15,219 nt of DNA, taken from contig DAIAVG010000013.1 in NCBI GenBank assembly GCA_027445725.1, positions 1 to 15,219 of the forward strand, read 5' to 3'. Positions 5,190 to 14,579 of the stretch are shown piece after piece. A program made the translations under genes and the position numbers. Below the pieces are notes generated by a model. That model was given only the letters and a program-made list of their open reading frames with translations, searched no databases and was not told where the DNA came from. The stretch comes from Acidithiobacillus sp. (lineage in GTDB: Bacteria > Pseudomonadota > Gammaproteobacteria > Acidithiobacillales > Acidithiobacillaceae). Numbering within the stretch: the first letter of the stretch is position 1; each line of letters opens with the position of its first letter.

Positions 5190-7958
5190 ATGGACTCCGT
5201 ATTCTCGACAGAAAAGAAAATACTGGTAGGCTTTAGCCTAGCCGTGTTGGCGCTTATCCTGGTGGGGGCTCTGGCCTTTCGCACCGCAGCTGGCTATGTC
5301 CGAGCCTCTTATTGGGTGGAGCACACTCAGACGGTGCTACGGAGCCTTGACCGCTGTTGGGCGCTGATCAATGAGGCGGAAACTGCGCAGCGCGGCTATC
5401 TCCTTACTGGCAATTCTTTCTATCTCCAGGAACGTCAGGATGCAATCCAGCGTTTTCAGACGGTGCTGGATGATTTGCCGAACAAGGTGACGGACAACCC
5501 ACTCGAAGTGCGTCGGGCGGTGGCGCTACGGCAGCAGGCGCAGAGACGTTTAGAGATTCTTGACAGTGTTCTTGACGCTTACGAAAAGCAGGGCCTTCCG
5601 GCGGCCCAGGCGATGCTTGGTGCGGGCGAAGGGATCGCCGAAATGACAGCGGTGCACGATCTGGTCGAGAAGATGCGTGCGACCGAAAGCGGTCTGCTCA
5701 AGAAACGCACCGAGGCGGCCCAAGAGGCGGGCGAGGCAACGTTATGGGCCATCGGAATCACGGTTGTCTTGCTGATTGCCCTGCTTACCGGACTCTTTTG
5801 GCAAATTAGAAAAGAGGGGCGTGAGCGTCGCGAAGCGGAAAGAGGGCTGGAAGAATCCCTGCGTATTGAAAGCAGTCAAGGACAGATTCTTGCACTCTTT
5901 AGTGGTTCCAGTTTTGGGTTAACCGAGATCCTTCAACAAGTTCTGAGCATCCTGGCGGAGAATCATCCCTTCCCGGTCTCTGCATTTTATCGCTACGACG
6001 AATGGCAAGGCCACTTTGTTCTGGCTGCGCACCGGGGCACCGATAGACAACTGGCAACCAGTTTTCAGCGTGGAGAGGGGGTTCTGGGCGAAGCGGCTGT
6101 GTCAGACCATCTACAACGCTTGCGACAACCCGATGACAACTCTGGGTTTCTGGTGGACGCAGGGGTCTGTCAGTTTCGACCTGCAGAGATCGCCATGGTG
6201 CCGATCCGTTATCAGGAGCAGCGATTCGGGGTGCTGGTGGTGGCCTCGCTACAAGCGCTAAGCGAGAGGAAGACCACCTTCCTGGATAAGCTTTCCCTAG
6301 AGATGGGCGCTGCCCTCAACCATATCGCCCAGAAAGAAAACCAGCAAATCATGGCCGTTGAGTTGCGTAAACAAAGCGAAGAGTTGCTGGAGAGAAATCA
6401 GTTGCTGCGCATGGCAGATCAGGCCAAGTCCGACTTTCTGGCCAACATGTCCCATGAGTTGCGTACCCCCCTCAATGCCATTATCGGTTTTTCCGAGTTG
6501 TTGAAGGACGGCGTCATGGGTGATCTTAGCCCTGAACAAAAAGATGCCACCGAGGATATTTTTGAAAGCGGCCAGCATCTCCTCTCTCTCATCAACGATA
6601 TCCTGGACCTCTCGAAAGTGGAGGCGGGCATGATGAAGCTGGAGTTGGAAGCGACGAACCTCCACGATTTGCTCCAGGGTTCTTTGGGAATTGTCAGGGA
6701 GAAGGCAGTGGCCCACCAGATTCGACTGAACCTCGAAGTGGAACCAGATTTTCCTCCCGTTTACCTGGACGCGCGCAAGACCAAGCAGATTCTGTACAAC
6801 CTGCTGTCCAACGCCGTGAAATTTACTCCCGAGGGCGGTCAGGTAACGCTCTGCGGGCGCAGAAGAAGCGATCTGTCCGGCCCTGAATATGCCGCCTACC
6901 CCGGTTGGCTGGAAATCAGTGTGGCCGATACGGGTATCGGTATCGCGAAAAAAGACCAGGGTCGGCTTTTCAAACCTTTTGTCCAGGCTGACAGTGGTTT
7001 GGATCGCCGCTATGAAGGTACTGGCCTCGGTCTTTCCCTTGTCAAACGTCTGGCAGAACTGCACGGTGGGCGAGTAACCATGGAAAGTGCGCTTGGGGAA
7101 GGGTCGACCTTTCATGTCTGGATTCCCTGGCGAGAGGAGACCGTTCTTGCAGAGGCGGATCCCGCGAAGGCGGTTTTCGCCTCCCAAATCGATCGCTCCG
7201 CCTTGGTGGTAGAGAATGACGACGCCACTGCGACCCTCCTGCAAGGTTACTTGAGAAGCGACGGATTTCGCGTACGCTGGGCTCGCGACTCCGTTGGCGG
7301 TTTAAATATGGCACGTGAAGAGCGCCCAGATCTCATCATTCTGGAGATGAATCCGCCAGGCAAGGACGGCTGGGATTTTCTTGCGGCCCAGCGCCAGGAT
7401 GATCGCCTGGCCACCATCCCGTTGGTAATTACCAGTATGGATTCAGAACAGGGTTCGGGCTTCTCCCTCGGGAGTGTTCAAGTCCTGCAGAAACCAGTTG
7501 AAATGGAACGTCTGAAAGAAATCCTGCGAAAACTCGGGTTTGTGGTGACCAAACAGAATCGCCCCGTGATCCTGGTGGTCGATGACGATGCGCGGGCGGT
7601 GGAGATCATTAATCGCCAGCTGAGCAATGGCGGTTACGAGGTCATCAGTGCTTACGGCGGGCGGGATGCCGTGACCATGGCAGAACATCTTCATCCCGAT
7701 CTTATCCTGCTGGACTTGATGATGCCGGAATTCAACGGCTTCGACGTAGTGGACGCGCTGCAGAAAAACCCAAGCATGGCGGCCATCCCGGTTTTGGTTT
7801 TGACGGCTAAAATAATTACGCCAGAGGACCGCCGTCGCCTGAATGGGCATATACTGAAGATCATGGAGAAGGCGGGTTTCAGGCGCGACCAATTCCTCGG
7901 GGAGGTGCACCGCGCATTGAGCACCGCCCATTCTCGCCAAGGGGAAGGAAGTGCCTAA
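5190..7958 (+). CDS. Hybrid sensor histidine kinase (CHASE3-GAF-HisKA-HATPase-REC-REC)
   Basis: This is a 922-residue inner-membrane kinase. Order: TM1 (about 10-30); a CHASE3-type periplasmic domain (about 38-180) with the typical INEAETAQRGYLLTG; TM2 (about 185-204); a short coiled linker; a GAF-like domain (about 235-380); HisKA with phospho-accepting H422 in SHELRTPLNA; HATPase with N541, DTGIGI (580-585) and GTGLGL (610-615). Two receiver domains follow. REC1 (about 670-785) has acidic residues at 675-678 and K768, but Glu719 occupies the phospho-Asp position. REC2 (about 792-912) has the acidic triad region DDD (798-800), D842 in LILLDLMMP and T872, and looks competent. It starts 54 nt after mnmE and overlaps the next gene by 8 nt. 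No good Shine-Dalgarno lies close to the ATG. The signal sensed is unknown. Confidence 0.9.
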   Translation: MDSVFSTEKKILVGFSLAVLALILVGALAFRTAAGYVRASYWVEHTQTVLRSLDRCWALINEAETAQRGYLLTGNSFYLQERQDAIQRFQTVLDDLPNKVTDNPLEVRRAVALRQQAQRRLEILDSVLDAYEKQGLPAAQAMLGAGEGIAEMTAVHDLVEKMRATESGLLKKRTEAAQEAGEATLWAIGITVVLLIALLTGLFWQIRKEGRERREAERGLEESLRIESSQGQILALFSGSSFGLTEILQQVLSILAENHPFPVSAFYRYDEWQGHFVLAAHRGTDRQLATSFQRGEGVLGEAAVSDHLQRLRQPDDNSGFLVDAGVCQFRPAEIAMVPIRYQEQRFGVLVVASLQALSERKTTFLDKLSLEMGAALNHIAQKENQQIMAVELRKQSEELLERNQLLRMADQAKSDFLANMSHELRTPLNAIIGFSELLKDGVMGDLSPEQKDATEDIFESGQHLLSLINDILDLSKVEAGMMKLELEATNLHDLLQGSLGIVREKAVAHQIRLNLEVEPDFPPVYLDARKTKQILYNLLSNAVKFTPEGGQVTLCGRRRSDLSGPEYAAYPGWLEISVADTGIGIAKKDQGRLFKPFVQADSGLDRRYEGTGLGLSLVKRLAELHGGRVTMESALGEGSTFHVWIPWREETVLAEADPAKAVFASQIDRSALVVENDDATATLLQGYLRSDGFRVRWARDSVGGLNMAREERPDLIILEMNPPGKDGWDFLAAQRQDDRLATIPLVITSMDSEQGSGFSLGSVQVLQKPVEMERLKEILRKLGFVVTKQNRPVILVVDDDARAVEIINRQLSNGGYEVISAYGGRDAVTMAEHLHPDLILLDLMMPEFNGFDVVDALQKNPSMAAIPVLVLTAKIITPEDRRRLNGHILKIMEKAGFRRDQFLGEVHRALSTAHSRQGEGSA

Positions 7959-8313
7959 GCGAATTTTGATCATTGAAGACAATATGGTCAACTATAAGCT
8001 TGCGGGTATTATCTTGCGCAAGGCCGGTTATGAAATTCTGCATGCGGGCGATGCAGAGCAGGGTGTTGCTATCGTCCGTGCCGAGCATCCAGACCTCGTT
8101 CTTATGGACATTCATTTGCCTGGCATGGATGGACTGACAGCGATCCGCATCCTAAAGGGAGATTCCGCGACGCAGAGGATTCCCATCCTGGCCCTCACGG
8201 CCTTGGCTATGAAAGGGGATGAGGAAAGCATTTTTGCCGCTGGTTGCGATGCCTATCTAAGTAAGCCGATAGGTCATCGGGCGCTTATAGATATTGTGGG
8301 TCGTTTTCTTTAG
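7951..8313 (+). CDS. Single-domain response regulator (DivK-like CheY-type)
   Basis: A 120-residue stand-alone receiver domain with no output domain. Acidic residues E9/D10, phospho-acceptor D53 ([13 protein letters not shown]), T83 (ILALTA) and K105 (YLSKP) are all present, so it should accept phosphate. The start is GTG at 7951, directly preceded by GGGGAAGGAA, and it overlaps the kinase stop by 8 nt, indicating coupled translation. Proteins of this type relay phosphate or act by protein contact. Here it could shuttle between the upstream hybrid kinase and another partner, perhaps the downstream HD-GYP protein; that wiring is inference. Confidence 0.9.
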
Positions 8314-8329
8314 TCGTAGGAGGAAGCCG

Positions 8330-9400
8330 ATGCCTGAACAGCGTGCCATGATCTTGGTGGTGGATGATGAGGGAAGTTGCCGTCGTCTGCTCACCGCCTT
8401 GTTGCAGAACGATGGTTATGAGGTGCTGGCGACATCCAGCGCTCAGGAGGCATTGGAGCGGCTTCAGGACCGCCGACCGGACTTGATACTCACGGACGGT
8501 ATGATGCCTCAGATCAGTGGGTTCGAACTGGCGGCGCGGCTCAAGGCGGACTCCCGCTATGCTAACTTACCCATCATCGTCGTCACGGCCCTCGATGACC
8601 GCGAAACGCGTTTGCGCGCCTTGGAGGTCGGCGTAGATGATTTTCTCGGCAAACCGATAGACCGAGCGGAGTTGCGCGTGCGAGTACGCAATATTCTGCG
8701 GCTCAAGGATTATGGCGATCGAATTCAGCGGAACAATGAAATTCTGGAAACCACCGTCCGGCAGCGCACGGCTCAGCTGCACGATAGTTATTTGCAGACT
8801 ATCGACGTTCTTCTGCGTGCCGCCGAGAAAAAGGACGAAGAAACTGGCGCTCATATTCAGCGCATCGCCTATTATTGTAAGGAGTTGGCACAGCAACTAG
8901 GCATGGGGAAAGATTTTGTGGACCTCATTTTTGTGGCGAGCCCTATGCACGACGTAGGAAAGATTGGGATTCCCGATCATGTCCTGCTGAAACCCGGTCC
9001 CTTGGATGTTGCGGAATGGGCCATTATGCGTACGCACACCACGCTCGGCGCTAATATTATTGGCCAACACAACGTTTCACTGGAATTACAGATGGGATGG
9101 GAAATTGCTCTGGGCCATCATGAACGATGGGATGGAAGTGGTTATCCTTTCGGTAGAAATGGCAATGAGATCCCTCTGTCGGCAAGGATGATGGCATTGG
9201 CAGACGTCTATGATGCCTTACGAAGTCGGCGTCCTTATAAAGAACCGTTTGATCATGAAAGAGCAACGGATATTATCTTAAAAGGAGATGGACGGGTTAA
9301 ACCAGAGCATTTCGATCCTGATGTTTTGGCTGCATTTCCTCGCGCAGCCCCCAGTTTTGCGGAGTGCTACGCCGCATTAACCGATTGTGACATCTCTTAG
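8330..9400 (+). CDS. REC-HD-GYP response regulator, predicted cyclic-di-GMP phosphodiesterase
   Basis: A 356-residue RpfG-like protein. The receiver domain (about 6-122) has D12/D13, phospho-acceptor D56 (LILTDGMMP), T86 and K108. A helical linker (about 125-155) leads to the HD-GYP domain (about 155-350) with the HD pair H207-D208 in [10 protein letters not shown], the [11 protein letters not shown] block (263-273) and the [12 protein letters not shown] helix (286-297). The GYP triplet is intact, which in the family goes with hydrolysis of cyclic di-GMP. ATG at 8330 is chosen because AGGAGGA (8318-8324) sits 5 nt upstream; the longer frame from 8294 overlaps the previous gene. It is the last gene of the signalling operon, 16 nt after the single-domain regulator. 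Confidence 0.93.
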
Positions 9401-9450: not shown

Positions 9451-9485
9451 GCAAATCCCCACCGGCAAGGCCGATGGGGATTTGC
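9451..9485 (-). terminator. Intrinsic terminator of the porin gene, also serving the convergent HD-GYP gene
   Basis: A perfect 10-bp stem (GCAAATCCCC, 9451-9460; GGGGATTTGC, 9476-9485) continues inward with CGGC/GCCG around an AAG triloop. Read on the - strand it is followed by TGATTTTTATT, a proper U-tract, and it lies 20 nt beyond the porin stop. On the + strand it lies 50 nt past the HD-GYP stop without a T-run. The two genes converge here. Confidence 0.85.
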
Positions 9486-9505: not shown

Positions 9506-10864
9506 TCAGAACGCAACAAATGCGGTAATTGCAATCTCATTGTCAGCGGCGCCAGCGACGCTTTGAGGCAATGCTCTTTGTGCAGGTGGGATGCTAGACA
9601 GGTTAGGTATTTTTACGCTTCTAACGAAATAATCAACCATTACCCTGGTAAACTTTGTAATATGATATTGGCCACCAATCGCCCAGGTTTTGAATATTCT
9701 CTCCTGTGGAGCGATATTGGGTAACCGGTCATAGACGTCATAGCGCAGGTCAAGCTCCAAACGGTTGGTCACAAAAAGCCCGCCGGAAACATAATATCCG
9801 CTAGCCTTATTCTGACTTCCAGGGTAAATCTGGGCGTCTGTGAGCGTAGGTGGTGCTGCTAGATATGTGTTAAATACTGCAGGAGCATCAATCATCCCGG
9901 AACCGCGCATATATTCGAACTTCGCCCATCTTCCCCAACGGTGCATGTATCCTTGCGTATACGTTATGCCAAGGCCATCCCTGGTCATGGAGTTAGATTG
10001 CCCATTAAAAATAGGGTTCGCATGCTGATACCAGAGGAATCCCGTCACATCACTGCGGAATGGCCCATGATCGGGTCCAAATCCCTTTAAAAGGTAAGAT
10101 GCCTGCAGGCGCGCGGCAACCAGTGGTCCGTTTGAGGTGTTAGTCCCTGTTAGTCGCCCAAAGTTGCCGACCATAACCCCATATGCATACTCCATATTCC
10201 CTGCATGAAACCAATCCATTACTTCTGCGCCAGGATACCGGAACGCATTATTCCCCAATACGTTTGTCCCAGGAACGGAATAGCTGCCGTATGGACCTGA
10301 CGTATACGTGGTGTTTGCAGAATAAAACGGCTGCAATATTAGTTGTTGGGTGACCGTGGTATAATTAAATCCAAATGCAAAGTTTGGGTATCCCTGCATG
10401 GCCTCTTCTGCCCCGGGTGCGCGGATGATACCCGCTTCAATGCGGGCACCAGGTATATAACTAAATGTAGCATGGGCATCCATAAGCTGCGGCGTGTAGT
10501 TGCCGCCGATGTGAGTAAACTGATTGTTCCCAAACTCGCCAGCCATCATGTATGAAATATGCTTATTGATGTTCCCCCGCAGCATAATGTGCGCGAAGAG
10601 AATATTAAATGATTTGCTGGAGGTGTCTTGTGGAGCCACCAAGTTGATTTTAGGGACCTGGCCGTTTACTGCCGTGGTTCCATTCATATACTTGTATAGC
10701 GGGATAATGAATCCGCTGAGGTGCACGAGCGGTGCTTTTGGTGGAGAAATTCCTTCCAACTTGAACCAATTTGCAGCGCTGGCCGATTCTATTGACCCTG
10801 TAGCCAGAGCGGCACAGGCAAGCGCACAGCTGATAAATTTTACTGTTCTTTTTTCCTTCCTCAT
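9506..10864 (-). CDS. Outer-membrane beta-barrel porin-like protein
   Basis: This encodes 452 residues with a clear Sec signal peptide: basic MRKEKR, hydrophobic core, then SASA-ANWF with likely cleavage near residue 30. The mature part is rich in Gly, Asn, Thr, Tyr and Phe, with many alternating strands such as RLELDLRYDVYDR and FTRVMVDYFVRS. It ends in phenylalanine (ITAFVAF), the usual C-terminal signal for BAM-dependent barrel assembly. I take it to be an outer-membrane channel, perhaps of the Porin O/P type; the substrate cannot be read from sequence. AAGGAG (10871-10876) sits about 6 nt before the ATG. Base composition is low in G+C compared with the flanks (I count 21 of 60 in 10321-10380). 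It lies downstream of a sigma-54 promoter and a small membrane-protein gene on the same strand. Confidence 0.85.
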   Translation of the reverse strand: MRKEKRTVKFISCALACAALATGSIESASAANWFKLEGISPPKAPLVHLSGFIIPLYKYMNGTTAVNGQVPKINLVAPQDTSSKSFNILFAHIMLRGNINKHISYMMAGEFGNNQFTHIGGNYTPQLMDAHATFSYIPGARIEAGIIRAPGAEEAMQGYPNFAFGFNYTTVTQQLILQPFYSANTTYTSGPYGSYSVPGTNVLGNNAFRYPGAEVMDWFHAGNMEYAYGVMVGNFGRLTGTNTSNGPLVAARLQASYLLKGFGPDHGPFRSDVTGFLWYQHANPIFNGQSNSMTRDGLGITYTQGYMHRWGRWAKFEYMRGSGMIDAPAVFNTYLAAPPTLTDAQIYPGSQNKASGYYVSGGLFVTNRLELDLRYDVYDRLPNIAPQERIFKTWAIGGQYHITKFTRVMVDYFVRSVKIPNLSSIPPAQRALPQSVAGAADNEIAITAFVAF

Positions 10865-11046
10865 CTCGATCTCCTTTAGGCATCGCGCCAGGCGTGCTCA
10901 TTTAGTTATCTGTTACTCAGCTGTTCTACAACGCCTTAATCCTTCATTACATGGGCGGCCGTGATAGCCAAAACTGAGTTCTTTAACTACTCAATGCAAC
11001 AACACCAGAAACTTAGCCAGACCAATGGTTGGTTAATAAAAGTGCG

Positions 11047-11085
11047 TATATCCATGCTATTGGCCAAGCCGATAACATGGATATA
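11047..11085 (-). terminator. Long intercistronic hairpin between small ORF and porin
   Basis: A perfect 10-bp inverted repeat (TATATCCATG, 11047-11056; CATGGATATA, 11076-11085) continues inward past one mismatch with seven more positions (TATTGGC against GCCGATA) around a 3-nt loop. It starts 4 nt after the stop of the 49-codon gene. On the - strand it is followed by CGCACTTTTATT. It may be a partial terminator or an mRNA stabiliser lowering porin expression relative to the small protein. Confidence 0.55.
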
Positions 11086-11089
11086 AATG

Positions 11090-11239
11090 CTAACTGTTAG
11101 GGTTTACCGTTTTTAACGAGGTCGCCATAATCCAATCCCAAGAGCTGGTAAGGTAGACGGTACCGCCAAGGCTGGCTAACAATAGTGAAGACAAAAGAAT
11201 TTTGTTATATGGAATATCTTTATGTACAATACCCGGCAC
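11090..11239 (-). CDS. Small single-span membrane protein, 49 aa, unknown function
   Basis: I do not recognise this protein. It starts at GTG (11239-11237), preceded with a 5-nt spacing by a perfect GGAGGT (11250-11245). It runs 49 residues: MPGIVHKDIPYNK, a hydrophobic segment ILLSSLLLASLGGTVYL (about 14-30), then SSWDWIMATSLKTVNPNS. The features suggest a single transmembrane helix; an uncleaved anchor seems more likely than a signal peptide, but a lipobox or cleavage site is not evident. The frame remains open upstream to 11317, yet only the GTG has a ribosome-binding site. It is the first gene after the sigma-54 promoter and lies 225 nt upstream of the porin gene, so it may be a small partner or accessory of that system. 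Confidence 0.6.
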   Translation of the reverse strand: MPGIVHKDIPYNKILLSSLLLASLGGTVYLTSSWDWIMATSLKTVNPNS

Positions 11240-11323
11240 GTTAGACCTCCAAAAATGAAAACAGGAATCCTGTCGCAGCATAGGTGATGTATGTACTCGG
11301 AGACCTATAGAAAGCATTTCCCC

Positions 11324-11376
11324 CTATAGATTCTCGATTCTCACCCTACATATAAGGCTACGACTATAATCTATAG
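11324..11376. repeat. 9-bp inverted repeat flanking the sigma-54 start point
   Basis: CTATAGATT (11324-11332) and AATCTATAG (11368-11376) are perfect inverted copies. The second overlaps the -12 element and the region just upstream of the predicted start point; the first lies about 35 nt into the transcript. A third CTATAG occurs at 11305-11310. It could be an operator or a chance feature of an A/T-rich leader. Confidence 0.4.
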
Positions 11377-11390
11377 CATGTATCGTGCCA
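11375..11390 (-). promoter_or_regulatory. Sigma-54 (-24/-12) promoter
   Basis: On the - strand the sequence TGGCACGATACATGCT matches the consensus TGGCAC-N5-TTGCW with a single mismatch (A for the first T of the -12 box). The invariant GG and GC are present at exactly the right spacing. Transcription would start near 11364 and run leftward through the 49-codon gene and toward the porin. An NtrC-family activator gene lies directly upstream on the same strand. Confidence 0.78.
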
Positions 11391-11524
11391 GCTATATGAA
11401 GATGGCAGGGTGCTGTTTTGTTTTAATATTCTTATGATGGAGAGGGTCAAGGGGCGCGCGAATGAACCAAACGGCGCATCTGAACGGTGAAGTTGTGCCA
11501 AAAGGGCCAGCGAGTGCCCATTCC

Positions 11525-11538
11525 GGTCACGTTTGACC
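11525..11538. promoter_or_regulatory. Candidate activator-binding palindrome A
   Basis: A perfect 5-bp dyad, GGTCA and TGACC separated by 4 nt, lies about 135 bp upstream of the sigma-54 -24 element. It is short and could be fortuitous; position is compatible with an upstream activating site. Confidence 0.25.
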
Positions 11539-11569
11539 ACACCAAGGTAGGGACTATGCCGACAGCCTG

Positions 11570-11586
11570 ACATCCCCGGGGGATGT
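11570..11586. promoter_or_regulatory. Candidate activator-binding palindrome B
   Basis: ACATCCCC and GGGGATGT form a perfect 8-bp dyad around one central G. It lies about 180 bp upstream of the -24 element, within the usual range for enhancer sites of NtrC-type activators, and between that promoter and the activator gene. It is the best enhancer candidate here, but binding is inferred. Confidence 0.45.
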
Positions 11587-11626
11587 GTGATGGTCGGCGG
11601 TGCCGTAAAGCAGGTCAGCAGGCTGG

Positions 11627-11670
11627 GTTAGGGTGGTTGATATGAAGTCGTCCCAAGACGACCACCTAAC
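11627..11670 (-). terminator. Nested inverted repeats after the activator gene
   Basis: An inner perfect hairpin GTCGTC (11647-11652), loop CCAA, GACGAC (11657-11662) sits inside an outer imperfect repeat, GTTAGGGTGGT (11627-11637) against ACCACCTAAC (11661-11670). It begins 9 nt past the activator stop. No strong U-tract follows on the - strand, so termination is only plausible. Confidence 0.4.
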
Positions 11671-11678
11671 TGCCGTGG

Positions 11679-13046
11679 TTATTCCTTCTCGCCGCCCAGC
11701 AAATCCTCGTGGTCGCCGATGAGCCCGAGGTTTTTCATGCGGGTGCGCAGTTGCTTGCGGCTGATGCCGAGCAGAATGGCGGCCTGGCTCTGGTTGAAGT
11801 GGGTTTTGTTCAAGGCCGAAACGACCGCTTCGCGCTCTACCGCGTGAAGGCCATAAGTCCCGCCGGCGGGGAGTGCTCTCTCCGTTTCCGCGATACGCAT
11901 CTCATTCGGGAGATCGGTCGTAAGTATGGTGCCGCTCCGATTGAGCACCACCAGCCGTTCGACGATATTCTCGAGCTGGCGGATGTTGCCGGGCCATGAA
12001 TACGCGCTGATGGTGGCCAGCGCCGGGGCCTCGATATCCATTTCAGGCCTTCCGACGGCTGCGCAGACCCGGCGCAGAAAATGGCGCACGAGAGGGGCGA
12101 TGTCCTCACGCCGTTCGCGCAGCGGCGGGATATGCAGCGGGATGACATTCAGGCGGTAATACAGGTCTTCCCGAAAGCTGCCTTCTTCCACTGCTTTGGC
12201 GAGGTCCACGTGGGTCGCGGCAATGATGCGGGCGGCGAGGCGCAAGGGCTGGTGCCCGCCAAGGCGCGTGTATTCCCGCTCCTGCAGGGCCCGCAGCAGC
12301 TTGACCTGCATGGGCAGCGGCATATCGCCGACCTCGTCCAGGAAGAGCGTGCCTGCGCCCACCATTTCTAACTTCCCCGCCTGAGTGCGCAATGCGCCCG
12401 TAAAGGCGCCCTTCTCGTACCCGAAGATTTCGCTTTCCACCAGATCCAGGGGGATGGCCCCGCAGTTGAAAGCGATAAAAGGCGCTTGGGTCCGCGGCGA
12501 GGCGATGTGTAGCGCCCTGGCGACCAACTCCTTGCCGGTGCCCGACTCCCCGGTAATAAGTACGCTAGAAGCGGCTGGCGCGATGAGATCAATCATCTCC
12601 AGCATCTCGAAGGTGCCCAGGCTCTCCCCGATGATGCCGTGGCGCGGCAGGTCCTGGCGGTGGGGTGGTATGGTGTAGCCGCGGCGGCTCAGGGCTTGGC
12701 GAATGACCGCGACAAGTTCCCCCTCGTCCACCGGTTTGGTCAGGTAATGCTCCGCGCCCGCCTTGATGGCCTGTACCGCCTGTTCGATTTCGCCATAGGC
12801 AGTGGCGATCAACACCGGAATCTCGGGCCAGCGTTCCTTGATGTGCCTTAGCAGTTCGGTGCCGCTCATCCCCGGCAAACGCTGGTCCGTAAGGACCAGG
12901 ACGGGAATATCCCGAGCCATGACCGCCAGCGCTTCTTCCGCCCTTTCGGTTTGTATGGTCGAGAATCCCTCGGCCTCCAGGATGGCGGCGAGTACACTGC
13001 GCAGATTTTTTTCGTCCTCGACGATGAGAATTTTCTGGGATGGCAT
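11679..13046 (-). CDS. NtrC-family sigma-54-dependent response regulator
   Basis: A 455-residue enhancer-binding activator. The receiver domain (1-120) has E10/D11, phospho-acceptor D54 (VLVLTDQRLPGM), T82 and K104 (LTKP). The AAA+ domain (about 138-370) has Walker A GESGTGK (166-172), the GAFTGA loop that contacts sigma-54 (213-218), Walker B LFLDEVGD (234-241) and the arginine-finger-like REDLYYRLN region. The C-terminal Fis-type helix-turn-helix is at about 418-441 (NQSQAAILLGISRKQLRTRM). All motifs needed to activate sigma-54 RNA polymerase are intact. It starts 51 nt after the kinase gene and is probably its cognate partner. The start ATG lacks a close Shine-Dalgarno (AGGGG lies about 18 nt upstream). 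The pair resembles ZraSR/HydHG and the TspS-TspR type described in Acidithiobacillus caldus; the exact orthology is unknown. Confidence 0.95.
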   Translation of the reverse strand: MPSQKILIVEDEKNLRSVLAAILEAEGFSTIQTERAEEALAVMARDIPVLVLTDQRLPGMSGTELLRHIKERWPEIPVLIATAYGEIEQAVQAIKAGAEHYLTKPVDEGELVAVIRQALSRRGYTIPPHRQDLPRHGIIGESLGTFEMLEMIDLIAPAASSVLITGESGTGKELVARALHIASPRTQAPFIAFNCGAIPLDLVESEIFGYEKGAFTGALRTQAGKLEMVGAGTLFLDEVGDMPLPMQVKLLRALQEREYTRLGGHQPLRLAARIIAATHVDLAKAVEEGSFREDLYYRLNVIPLHIPPLRERREDIAPLVRHFLRRVCAAVGRPEMDIEAPALATISAYSWPGNIRQLENIVERLVVLNRSGTILTTDLPNEMRIAETERALPAGGTYGLHAVEREAVVSALNKTHFNQSQAAILLGISRKQLRTRMKNLGLIGDHEDLLGGEKE

Positions 13047-13097
13047 GCCGATGGTTTTTTCAATACCCCTAAAATGACGATACCGATGTGTGGGCCA

Positions 13098-14507
13098 TCA
13101 ATCGGAACGCTGCGGAGGCAGGCAGAGCGCGAATTCCGCTCCCCCATCCCGTTGGCGCAATTCCACCTGGCCGTCGTGAACCATCATGATCTTGGTGACC
13201 ACCGCCAGCCCAAGGCCGCTACCCTTCGCCTTCCCTGTCACATAAGGCTTGAAAATGTCACTGACCCGCTCCGGTGGCACCCCTGGGCCATTGTCCACAA
13301 CCCCGGTCACGAACTGACCATTGCCTTCGCGCCGACCGTATAGGGTAATGCAGCCACCCTGGTTCGGCAAGGCTTCGACAGCGTTGAGCAGCAGGTTGCT
13401 GATAGCCTGCTCCAACAATTGAGGATCGACGATAACCTGCAGGGATGGAAGGCAATCTATAGTAAGGGCAATATTTTTGGCCTCCAAATCCGTCGCGTGC
13501 CGCTTGCTGCTGCGTAAGAGCAACTCCAGCGCGGATACTTCTGTGAGCTGTATATGGTAAGGACGCCCGAAATCCAGGAAACCCTGGGTCATGTCATACA
13601 GTCGCTGGACCTCTTCTTCGATGATATTGATGAAATCCTGCCGGTTCACCGGCTGCTCGTAGCGGACCAGATATCGCGCCGCACCGCGCAAGGACGAAAG
13701 GGCGTTGCGGATTTCGTGAGCCACCTGGGCCGACATCTCTCCAATCGTGGCCATGCATTGCATCGCCTGTTGCCTCCGGTGTAACTTGTTGAGTTCCATC
13801 AGGTATTGTTGCAGACGCTGTTCCAGCCTCTTGAAGCCTTCCTCTAGGTGCGTCATCTCGTCGCCATCCGCCGGAACGGGGGGATATGGCGAGAAACCGT
13901 CTACATGGAGCCGCGACTCCATGTCTGCCATCTTCTGCGAGAGGCGCAGGATGGGGCGGGTGAAGGCCTTGCCGATCAGCGATGCACCGATGAGGCCAAG
14001 GAAAGCCGTGATAATGCCAAGAAAGGAAAGACGCCTAATCGCAAGGTCCATGCGAGTATCCACTATGTTTTGGATAGCGTCGTTATTGGGATGCAGGCTT
14101 ACATAGCCTAGCATATGCGACCCAACACGGATGGGGGCCGTAAATTCCGCGCGCCCCGAGCTTGGCGGCACTGGTTCTTGTCGGCCGATCGCGGTTAACT
14201 GCGTACTCGCGATTATTACGCCTTGCTGATTTATTATGATTGCATGACGGATAAGTGGATTGCTCTCGACCTGCTTAATGAGTTTGAACAGCGCGCTCCC
14301 ATCTTTGAGTAATAGAGGGCCAGCGGCATCGTGGGCAAGTCCTCGGCTGAGATGGAGAACTTTGCCATGAATCCGCCCCTCCATATTTTGTTCGACGGCG
14401 GTGTAAAGAAACAGGACGATCGTCCCATAGATGCCAGCTATGAGCATGAGCACAAAGATCATACTTTTGGAACGCAGGCTCAAATGGCGCCAGAAATTAA
14501 GGGCCAT
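13098..14507 (-). CDS. Membrane sensor histidine kinase (HAMP-HisKA-HATPase), partner of the NtrC-type regulator
   Basis: A 469-residue kinase, counted from ATG 14507. TM1 is at about 16-36, a periplasmic sensor at about 37-159 without cysteines (it looks PDC/Cache-like, with HAIIINQQGVIIASTQ), TM2 at about 160-180, and a HAMP segment around 181-235 with the TRPILRLSQKM motif. HisKA has H264 in AHEIRNALSSL, followed by HATPase with N375, DNGPG (405-409) and GSGLGL (429-434). It is expected to autophosphorylate and feed D54 of the downstream regulator. The start is ambiguous: a TTG at 14558 adds 17 residues, but neither start has a good ribosome-binding site; the ATG lies 15 residues before TM1, as usual. 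The ligand is unknown. Confidence 0.92.
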   Translation of the reverse strand: MALNFWRHLSLRSKSMIFVLMLIAGIYGTIVLFLYTAVEQNMEGRIHGKVLHLSRGLAHDAAGPLLLKDGSALFKLIKQVESNPLIRHAIIINQQGVIIASTQLTAIGRQEPVPPSSGRAEFTAPIRVGSHMLGYVSLHPNNDAIQNIVDTRMDLAIRRLSFLGIITAFLGLIGASLIGKAFTRPILRLSQKMADMESRLHVDGFSPYPPVPADGDEMTHLEEGFKRLEQRLQQYLMELNKLHRRQQAMQCMATIGEMSAQVAHEIRNALSSLRGAARYLVRYEQPVNRQDFINIIEEEVQRLYDMTQGFLDFGRPYHIQLTEVSALELLLRSSKRHATDLEAKNIALTIDCLPSLQVIVDPQLLEQAISNLLLNAVEALPNQGGCITLYGRREGNGQFVTGVVDNGPGVPPERVSDIFKPYVTGKAKGSGLGLAVVTKIMMVHDGQVELRQRDGGAEFALCLPPQRSD

Positions 14508-14579
14508 GGCGCGACTGAGGTGTGCAGTCAATAGTAGACACTCATACTCATGTTTCAATCGGCCCGTTCAGTTTCAGTG

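Follow-up and report, generated by a model that had tools for sequence, protein, structure and literature searches.

An Acidithiobacillus tet locus that appears to have kept its sigma-54 regulators and porin after an in-frame internal deletion of tetH

We analysed a 15,219-nucleotide stretch of Acidithiobacillus sp. DNA (contig DAIAVG010000013.1 of assembly GCA_027445725.1; its full length is called the window below), in which a first-pass annotation had described a sensor kinase, an NtrC-type activator, a -24/-12 promoter, a 49-codon open reading frame (ORF), a hairpin, an outer-membrane barrel gene and a terminator on one strand. All of these were recovered in that order on the minus strand (14507-9451) from ORFs, domains, motifs and fold scores. 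Very likely, the locus began as the tcsS-tcsR-tetH-porin (tet) operon known from iron-oxidising Acidithiobacillus and then lost the interior of tetH, the gene for tetrathionate hydrolase, to an in-frame deletion. Which gene was deleted, that the join is in frame, and that the promoter, the putative activator site and the regulators are conserved can all be read from the sequence itself. The annotated two-component sigma-54 unit with a porin downstream was supported, whereas its description as self-contained was not.

The 49-codon ORF and the tetH deletion

When the 49 residues were used as query in a translated search of 54 genomes, the same ORF was found in one of them (G001, 96%), and split matches were obtained to a single frame of ~500 codons in each of G011, G013 and G016. 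Residues 1-27 (1-32 in G016) matched the start of that frame and residues 24-48 (24-47 in G016) its end; the C-terminal residues alone also matched TetH-type frames in further genomes. The ~500-codon frame is tetrathionate hydrolase (E = 0 against PDB 6l8a and 7cqy). In G016 and G013 it has the activator on one side and the porin on the other, and a single contig of G011 holds the 3' end of the activator gene, the tetH frame and the porin.

Compared with intact tetH of 499 codons, the first 25 and last 25 codons of the window ORF aligned without gaps and shared one glycine codon at the join, for a net loss of 450 codons (1,350 bp) with the reading frame preserved. This junction was placed without the MAFFT alignment, in which the last 25 codons were misplaced. 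Window DNA was identical to the three intact copies at 55-57 of 75 positions over the first 25 codons and at 61-63 of 78 over the last 26 codons, stop included. Because the 49 codons are the two ends of tetH fused together, the small ORF is a remnant rather than the native small membrane protein gene of the first-pass annotation. The further suggestion that the locus lacks an enzyme and would therefore serve permeability or sensing was wrong, as tetrathionate hydrolase stands at this place in relatives and was deleted here. Of the enzyme, the stub retains part of the signal peptide and the 25 C-terminal residues, and the lost codons include the catalytic Asp325, which is required for tetrathionate hydrolase activity according to passages of PMC10859504. 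The intact tetH with Asp325 that marks an A. ferrooxidans-type tet operon is accordingly absent (450 of 499 codons gone); the 49-residue product had no Pfam match, and no eight-bladed PQQ-like beta-propeller is encoded.

The break regions in the intact copies, GGCTGGGTGCCGT in G016 and GGAGGTACCGT in G013, resemble short imperfect repeats, and slippage between such repeats would suit the deletion. The same join was found in G001, which is 99.36% identical to the window over 12,398 bp, and a public protein set has two clusters with it, P0001 (49 amino acids, 7 contigs) and P0002 (75 amino acids, 3 contigs); all three have Ile where the window ORF has Ser. The deletion is not described in the passages available from PMC6335251, PMC10859504, PMC12194929, PMC5506826, PMC2754497, PMC5093147 and PMC8528912. 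What could plausibly be misread as a gene for a small membrane protein is thus a concrete gene loss, a natural counterpart to the laboratory A. ferrooxidans tetH knockouts mentioned in passages of reviews.

Regulators, promoter and putative activator site

The two regulators are orthologous to AFE_0026 and AFE_0027 of the A. ferrooxidans tet operon. TcsS was 82.9% identical to the orthologous kinase upstream of tetH in G016 and had a single-Cache match below threshold; its ORF spans 13098-14558, with an ATG at 14507. TcsR, 84% identical to its G016 counterpart, has every part of an NtrC-type activator (receiver, AAA+ domain and helix-turn-helix (HTH)), with Walker A and B motifs and, as annotated earlier, an intact GAFTGA, at residue 213.

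The near-perfect -24/-12 promoter of the first-pass annotation was likewise borne out. Chance is an unlikely source of it: the window has two occurrences of the pattern TGGCACRN5TGC where shuffles predicted 0.07, and 22 of 20,000 Markov-1 sequences modelled on the 439-bp intergenic region contained it. The element, TGGCACGATACATGC, matches the tet promoter TGGCACAATACATGC, which passages of PMC5506826 describe as mapped in A. ferrooxidans and sigma-54-dependent, and it was kept in the relatives that retain the genes. A palindrome-like site, TGGCCCTTTTGGSACA, was found upstream of it in the window, G001, G008 and G016, with variants in G011 and G013, and the spacing of site and promoter was 119-120 bp at these six tcs/tet loci, which are those with both. 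The site resembles the TspR site of A. caldus, given as TGTCCCAAATGGGACA in passages of PMC6335251. A candidate TcsR activator site is therefore argued for by its position and its pairing with the promoter.

We also searched with a pattern, TGKCYCNNTTGGSACA, which was derived from the sites in G001, G008, G016, G019, G030 and G031, so that only further sites test it. It matched 14 places in 11 of 31 genomes, compared with 1 of 31 for the reversed control. Ten of the 14 adjoin tcsR, tspR or sox and are followed, 119-233 bp further along, by a promoter-like match; of these, only those in G003 and G009 (by tspR) were new. The other four (G015:C790, G018:C85, G030:C7 and G038:C28), with no promoter match nearby, were taken as chance, and most TspR loci had no match to the site as formulated. 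Over HTH positions 415-441, the window protein differed from TspR of Acidithiobacillaceae at 3-4 of 27 positions (6-8 in G030 and G031), from TcsR of G009, G013, G011 and G016 at 4-6, and from that of G008 at none.

By homology, TcsS would sense a reduced sulfur compound and phosphorylate TcsR, which would bind the palindrome ~120 bp upstream of the -24/-12 element and open sigma-54 RNA polymerase there. The ancestral transcript would have encoded tetrathionate hydrolase and the porin, and the present one would encode the 49-codon stub and the intact porin. We infer the signal, the TcsR-DNA contact, the co-transcription of the porin and the continued working of the circuit. Compared with G016, omega was 0.19 for tcsS, 0.09 for tcsR and 0.10 for the porin gene.

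Several points weigh against this account. The second arm of the window site departs from a perfect palindrome (GGCACA versus GGGACA), and with up to 2 mismatches the putative site alone was not enriched over a reversed control (3 versus 1 in G001, 2 versus 6 in G016, 5 versus 2 in G008). The 0.7 kb of contig that follows tcsR in G009 contains neither the site nor the promoter. No porin at the tet locus is mentioned in the passages available from A. ferrooxidans papers, the sulfur signal proposed for TcsS is drawn from relatives, and expression from the locus and porin co-transcription are predictions from the DNA. Finally, the differences between the window and G001 (4 synonymous and 1 nonsynonymous in tcsR, 1 and 1 in tcsS) are too few to demonstrate that selection has acted since the deletion, and the divergence from G016 may for the most part be older than it.

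Relatives, a second promoter and competing explanations

A tcsS at least 82% identical to that of the window was found in 6 of 32 relatives searched (G001, G008, G009, G011, G013 and G016). In a kinase tree of 23 rows, which carries a long-branch warning for its outer rows, these and the window formed a 7-row clade apart from TspS (support 100/100). The six elements of the first-pass annotation did not stay together in these relatives: three of the six have intact tetH with the porin (G016, G013 and G011, which is probably A. ferruginosus), one has the deleted tetH with the porin (G001, like the window), and two have neither directly after tcsR (G008, and G009 as far as its 0.7 kb of contig). 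Gene position and the tet promoter text in passages of PMC5506826 make it very probable that G016 is A. ferrooxidans ATCC 23270. In G008 (L044, C40, 3361-4808), the promoter and activator site were kept and doxDA-dsbD-thioredoxin replaces tetH and the porin; between the sites and these genes lies a 57-bp piece of porin gene (94.7% identical to the window), apparently a scar left where porin DNA once stood. In G008 the reading frame of tcsR is interrupted, for which a draft-assembly error may account.

The tet operon of A. ferrooxidans ATCC 23270 (AFE_0026, AFE_0027, AFE_0029) has the same orthologous kinase, sigma-54 activator, -24/-12 promoter and porin, with mnmE beyond, whereas in the window tetH is cut to 49 codons, the intergenic DNA differs, and a hybrid-kinase/HD cluster lies between the porin and mnmE. 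TspS-TspR of the sox-II loci of sulfur-oxidising Acidithiobacillus is a paralogous sigma-54 pair (activator 69-72% identical in other Acidithiobacillaceae and 63-64% in two order-level rows), with a similar promoter and, at some loci, a similar activator site; passages of a 2025 study call TcsSR orthologous to TspSR (PMC12194929). Of 16 TspSR loci examined in other genomes, 15 have soxYZ next (none in G007), and the five loci with both sites matching have spacings of 142-233 bp, whereas the window has the tetH stub and the porin after the regulator and no sox directly downstream. RsrS-RsrR-tetH-doxD of A. caldus likewise has a two-component pair upstream of tetH, according to passages of PMC5093147, but RsrSR is EnvZ/OmpR-like in the text available from PMC6335251 and not sigma-54-type, unlike TcsSR.

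Passages of the review PMC6335251 give a predicted tetH in all published Acidithiobacillus genomes. At E ≤ 1e-60, we found one other TetH in G008 (59%) and one in G001, 48% identical to the A. ferrooxidans enzyme with Asp kept at the position of residue 325, and none in G009 (85% complete). The classical tetH locus is empty here, and tetrathionate use in G001 would rest on this different enzyme. One promoter-like match, TGGCATGTTACATGC, falls within the 3' end of the gene that precedes the second tetH of G001 and has no paired activator site. This divergent TetH gene (L045, C29, 2806-6005) stands beside genes for a TauE/SafE exporter and an ArsR-rhodanese regulator.

A second promoter of the tcs type was found at the soxYZ...soxB clusters of G001 (C34) and G008 (C124), where SoxY, SoxZ and SoxB were identified by NCBIfam in G001 and by similarity in G008. 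In both, the site TGGCTCGTTTGGCACA and a -24/-12 element (TGGCACGAAACATGC in G001, TGGCATGAAACATGC in G008) lie exactly 119 bp apart. Upstream of sox, G001 has a decayed tcsR piece (parts of residues 322-455) with DNA 97-98% identical to window tcsR and no difference from the intact regulator over residues 415-441, and G008 has scraps of kinase and activator. At the cut-offs used, each genome has one regulator pair of the tcsSR type. Since sites and spacing match and only this pair was found, one pair faces two matching promoters in the lineage, as far as the assemblies show. The same regulator would probably also serve the sox promoter in G001, the closest of the relatives compared, which is one possible reason why it survives. 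The ~100-130 bp between the sox promoter and soxY leave no room for soxX, which was not sought elsewhere and which passages of PMC6335251 place first in sox-II. No counterpart of G008 soxA was found in G001 (best hit 43% over 61 residues): soxZ adjoins the next gene there (L064, C34, 1729-5618), whereas G008 has soxA between. With a putative activator site that is defined by sequence and placed ~120 bp upstream of a -24/-12 element, the TcsR/TspR regulon becomes open to testing.

Given a tet operon that has lost most of tetH, it is quite possible, if short of probable, that the regulators were taken over, so that TcsS/TcsR became the only such regulator in the cell and controls sox in trans together with the porin. 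The paired sites at sox, the tcsR-like remnants just upstream of it, the single regulator pair in G001 and G008, and a window HTH as near or nearer to TspR of Acidithiobacillaceae than to TcsR proteins other than that of G008 all point this way. However, the loss of soxA from view in G001 suggests erosion of the output itself, tcsR of G008 has an interrupted frame, and a second regulator pair could be missed in G001, whose assembly is 81% complete in ~290 contigs; the sox loci, moreover, are those of G001 and G008, as are the second-TetH genes, rather than of the window's own genome, and binding of TcsR to sox is putative. We suggest only tentatively that the pair has been kept as the single regulator of the porin at home and a distant sox promoter, where a regulator copy of its own has broken down into fragments, while enzyme genes erode around the circuit. 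It is rather unlikely, in our estimate, that the locus is simply dying, with regulators, promoter and porin not yet lost after tetH and nothing under selection. Consistent with decay, tetH is missing in three ways (internal deletion in the window and G001, replacement with a porin scar in G008, and no tetH or porin in the 0.7 kb of G009), and G008 tcsR is broken unless its assembly is at fault. Yet tcsS, tcsR and the porin gene are intact with their motifs in the window and G001, and the comparison with G016 has a purifying pattern, even if most of that divergence may be older than the deletion.

Two other explanations concern the small ORF itself. That it is a native gene for a small membrane protein is very improbable: it has a good ribosome site (GGAGG before the GTG), and none of the window, G001, P0001 and P0002 has lost its frame, but its first half aligns to the start of tetH and its second half to the end, a protein-set search (limited to 0.55-1.75x length) returned 2 proteins with the same deletion, and the window and G001 differ in it by 0 synonymous and 1 nonsynonymous changes. 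This idea is strongly disfavoured and would be viable again only if the stub was later put to a new use. It is extremely improbable that a collapsed or chimeric join removed tetH from the contig. The fragmentation of G001, which has the same join, would favour such an artefact; against it, the window, G001 and proteins from 7 and 3 contigs of a separate protein set all share the join with its frame kept, and at E ≤ 1e-60 the only other TetH found in G001 is the 48% identical protein.

Features of the locus and the porin

Coordinates and annotation of the features on the minus strand of the window.
Feature	Position	Strand	Description	Basis or remark
tcsS	13098..14507	-	Sensor histidine kinase, ZraS/AtoS-like	HisKA and HATPase_c; H-, N- and G-box motifs
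tcsR	11679..13046	-	NtrC-type sigma-54 activator	Receiver, Sigma54_activat (AAA+), HTH_8 (Fis-type HTH)
Putative TcsR upstream activator site	11494..11509	-	TGGCCCTTTTGGCACA	119 bp upstream of -24/-12; imperfect form of the A. caldus TspR site TGTCCCAAATGGGACA
-24/-12 (sigma-54) promoter	11376..11390	-	TGGCACGATACATGC	Motif match; orthologous A. ferrooxidans promoter mapped (passages of PMC5506826)
tetH remnant	11090..11239	-	49 codons, GTG start	Signal-peptide end joined in frame to last ~25 codons
Deletion junction	11162..11167	-	Codons GGC/GGT	1,350 bp absent relative to intact copies
Hairpin	11047..11085	-	Directly 3' of the remnant stop	Fold z = -5.0
Outer-membrane porin	9506..10864	-	452 amino acids, predicted general-porin/OprP-like barrel	Member of an Acidithiobacillus porin family
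Operon-closing terminator	9451..9485	-	16 pairs, then T run	Fold z = -5.0

Searches of Pfam and NCBIfam (E ≤ 0.1) and of PDB sequences (E ≤ 1) returned nothing for the porin. Its predicted fold was closest to the Pseudomonas porins OprP/OprO, at 15% identity over that alignment. PF07396 (phosphate-selective porin O/P) was matched by 15 of 46 aligned family members, not including the window protein; the alignment, on which the fold prediction was based, comprised the window and 45 of 51 hits, leaving out P0003, P0015, P0027, P0039, P0040 and P0042. Assignment of a substrate from the family was rejected, as the window protein resembles it in fold only. Differences between the window and G001 porins were concentrated at 9568-9611 and 10277-10342, with indels, against 99.4% identity over 12.4 kb; these stretches are probably surface loops under diversification or recombination.

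The hairpin after tetH has the same position in relatives with varying strength (z = -3.6 in G016, -0.6 in G013 and 0.0 in G011), and a conserved attenuator is not claimed because it is weak in two of the four copies. The palindrome just 3' of the activator gene had ordinary RNA stability (z = -0.27). About 100 bp just after that gene (11570-11675, minus strand) contain nested inverted repeats and are without counterpart in G011, G013 and G016. On the plus strand, 5190-9400, between mnmE and the porin, carries genes for a hybrid CHASE3-GAF histidine kinase, a single receiver and a receiver-HD phosphodiesterase-type protein, whereas in G016 mnmE comes directly after the porin.

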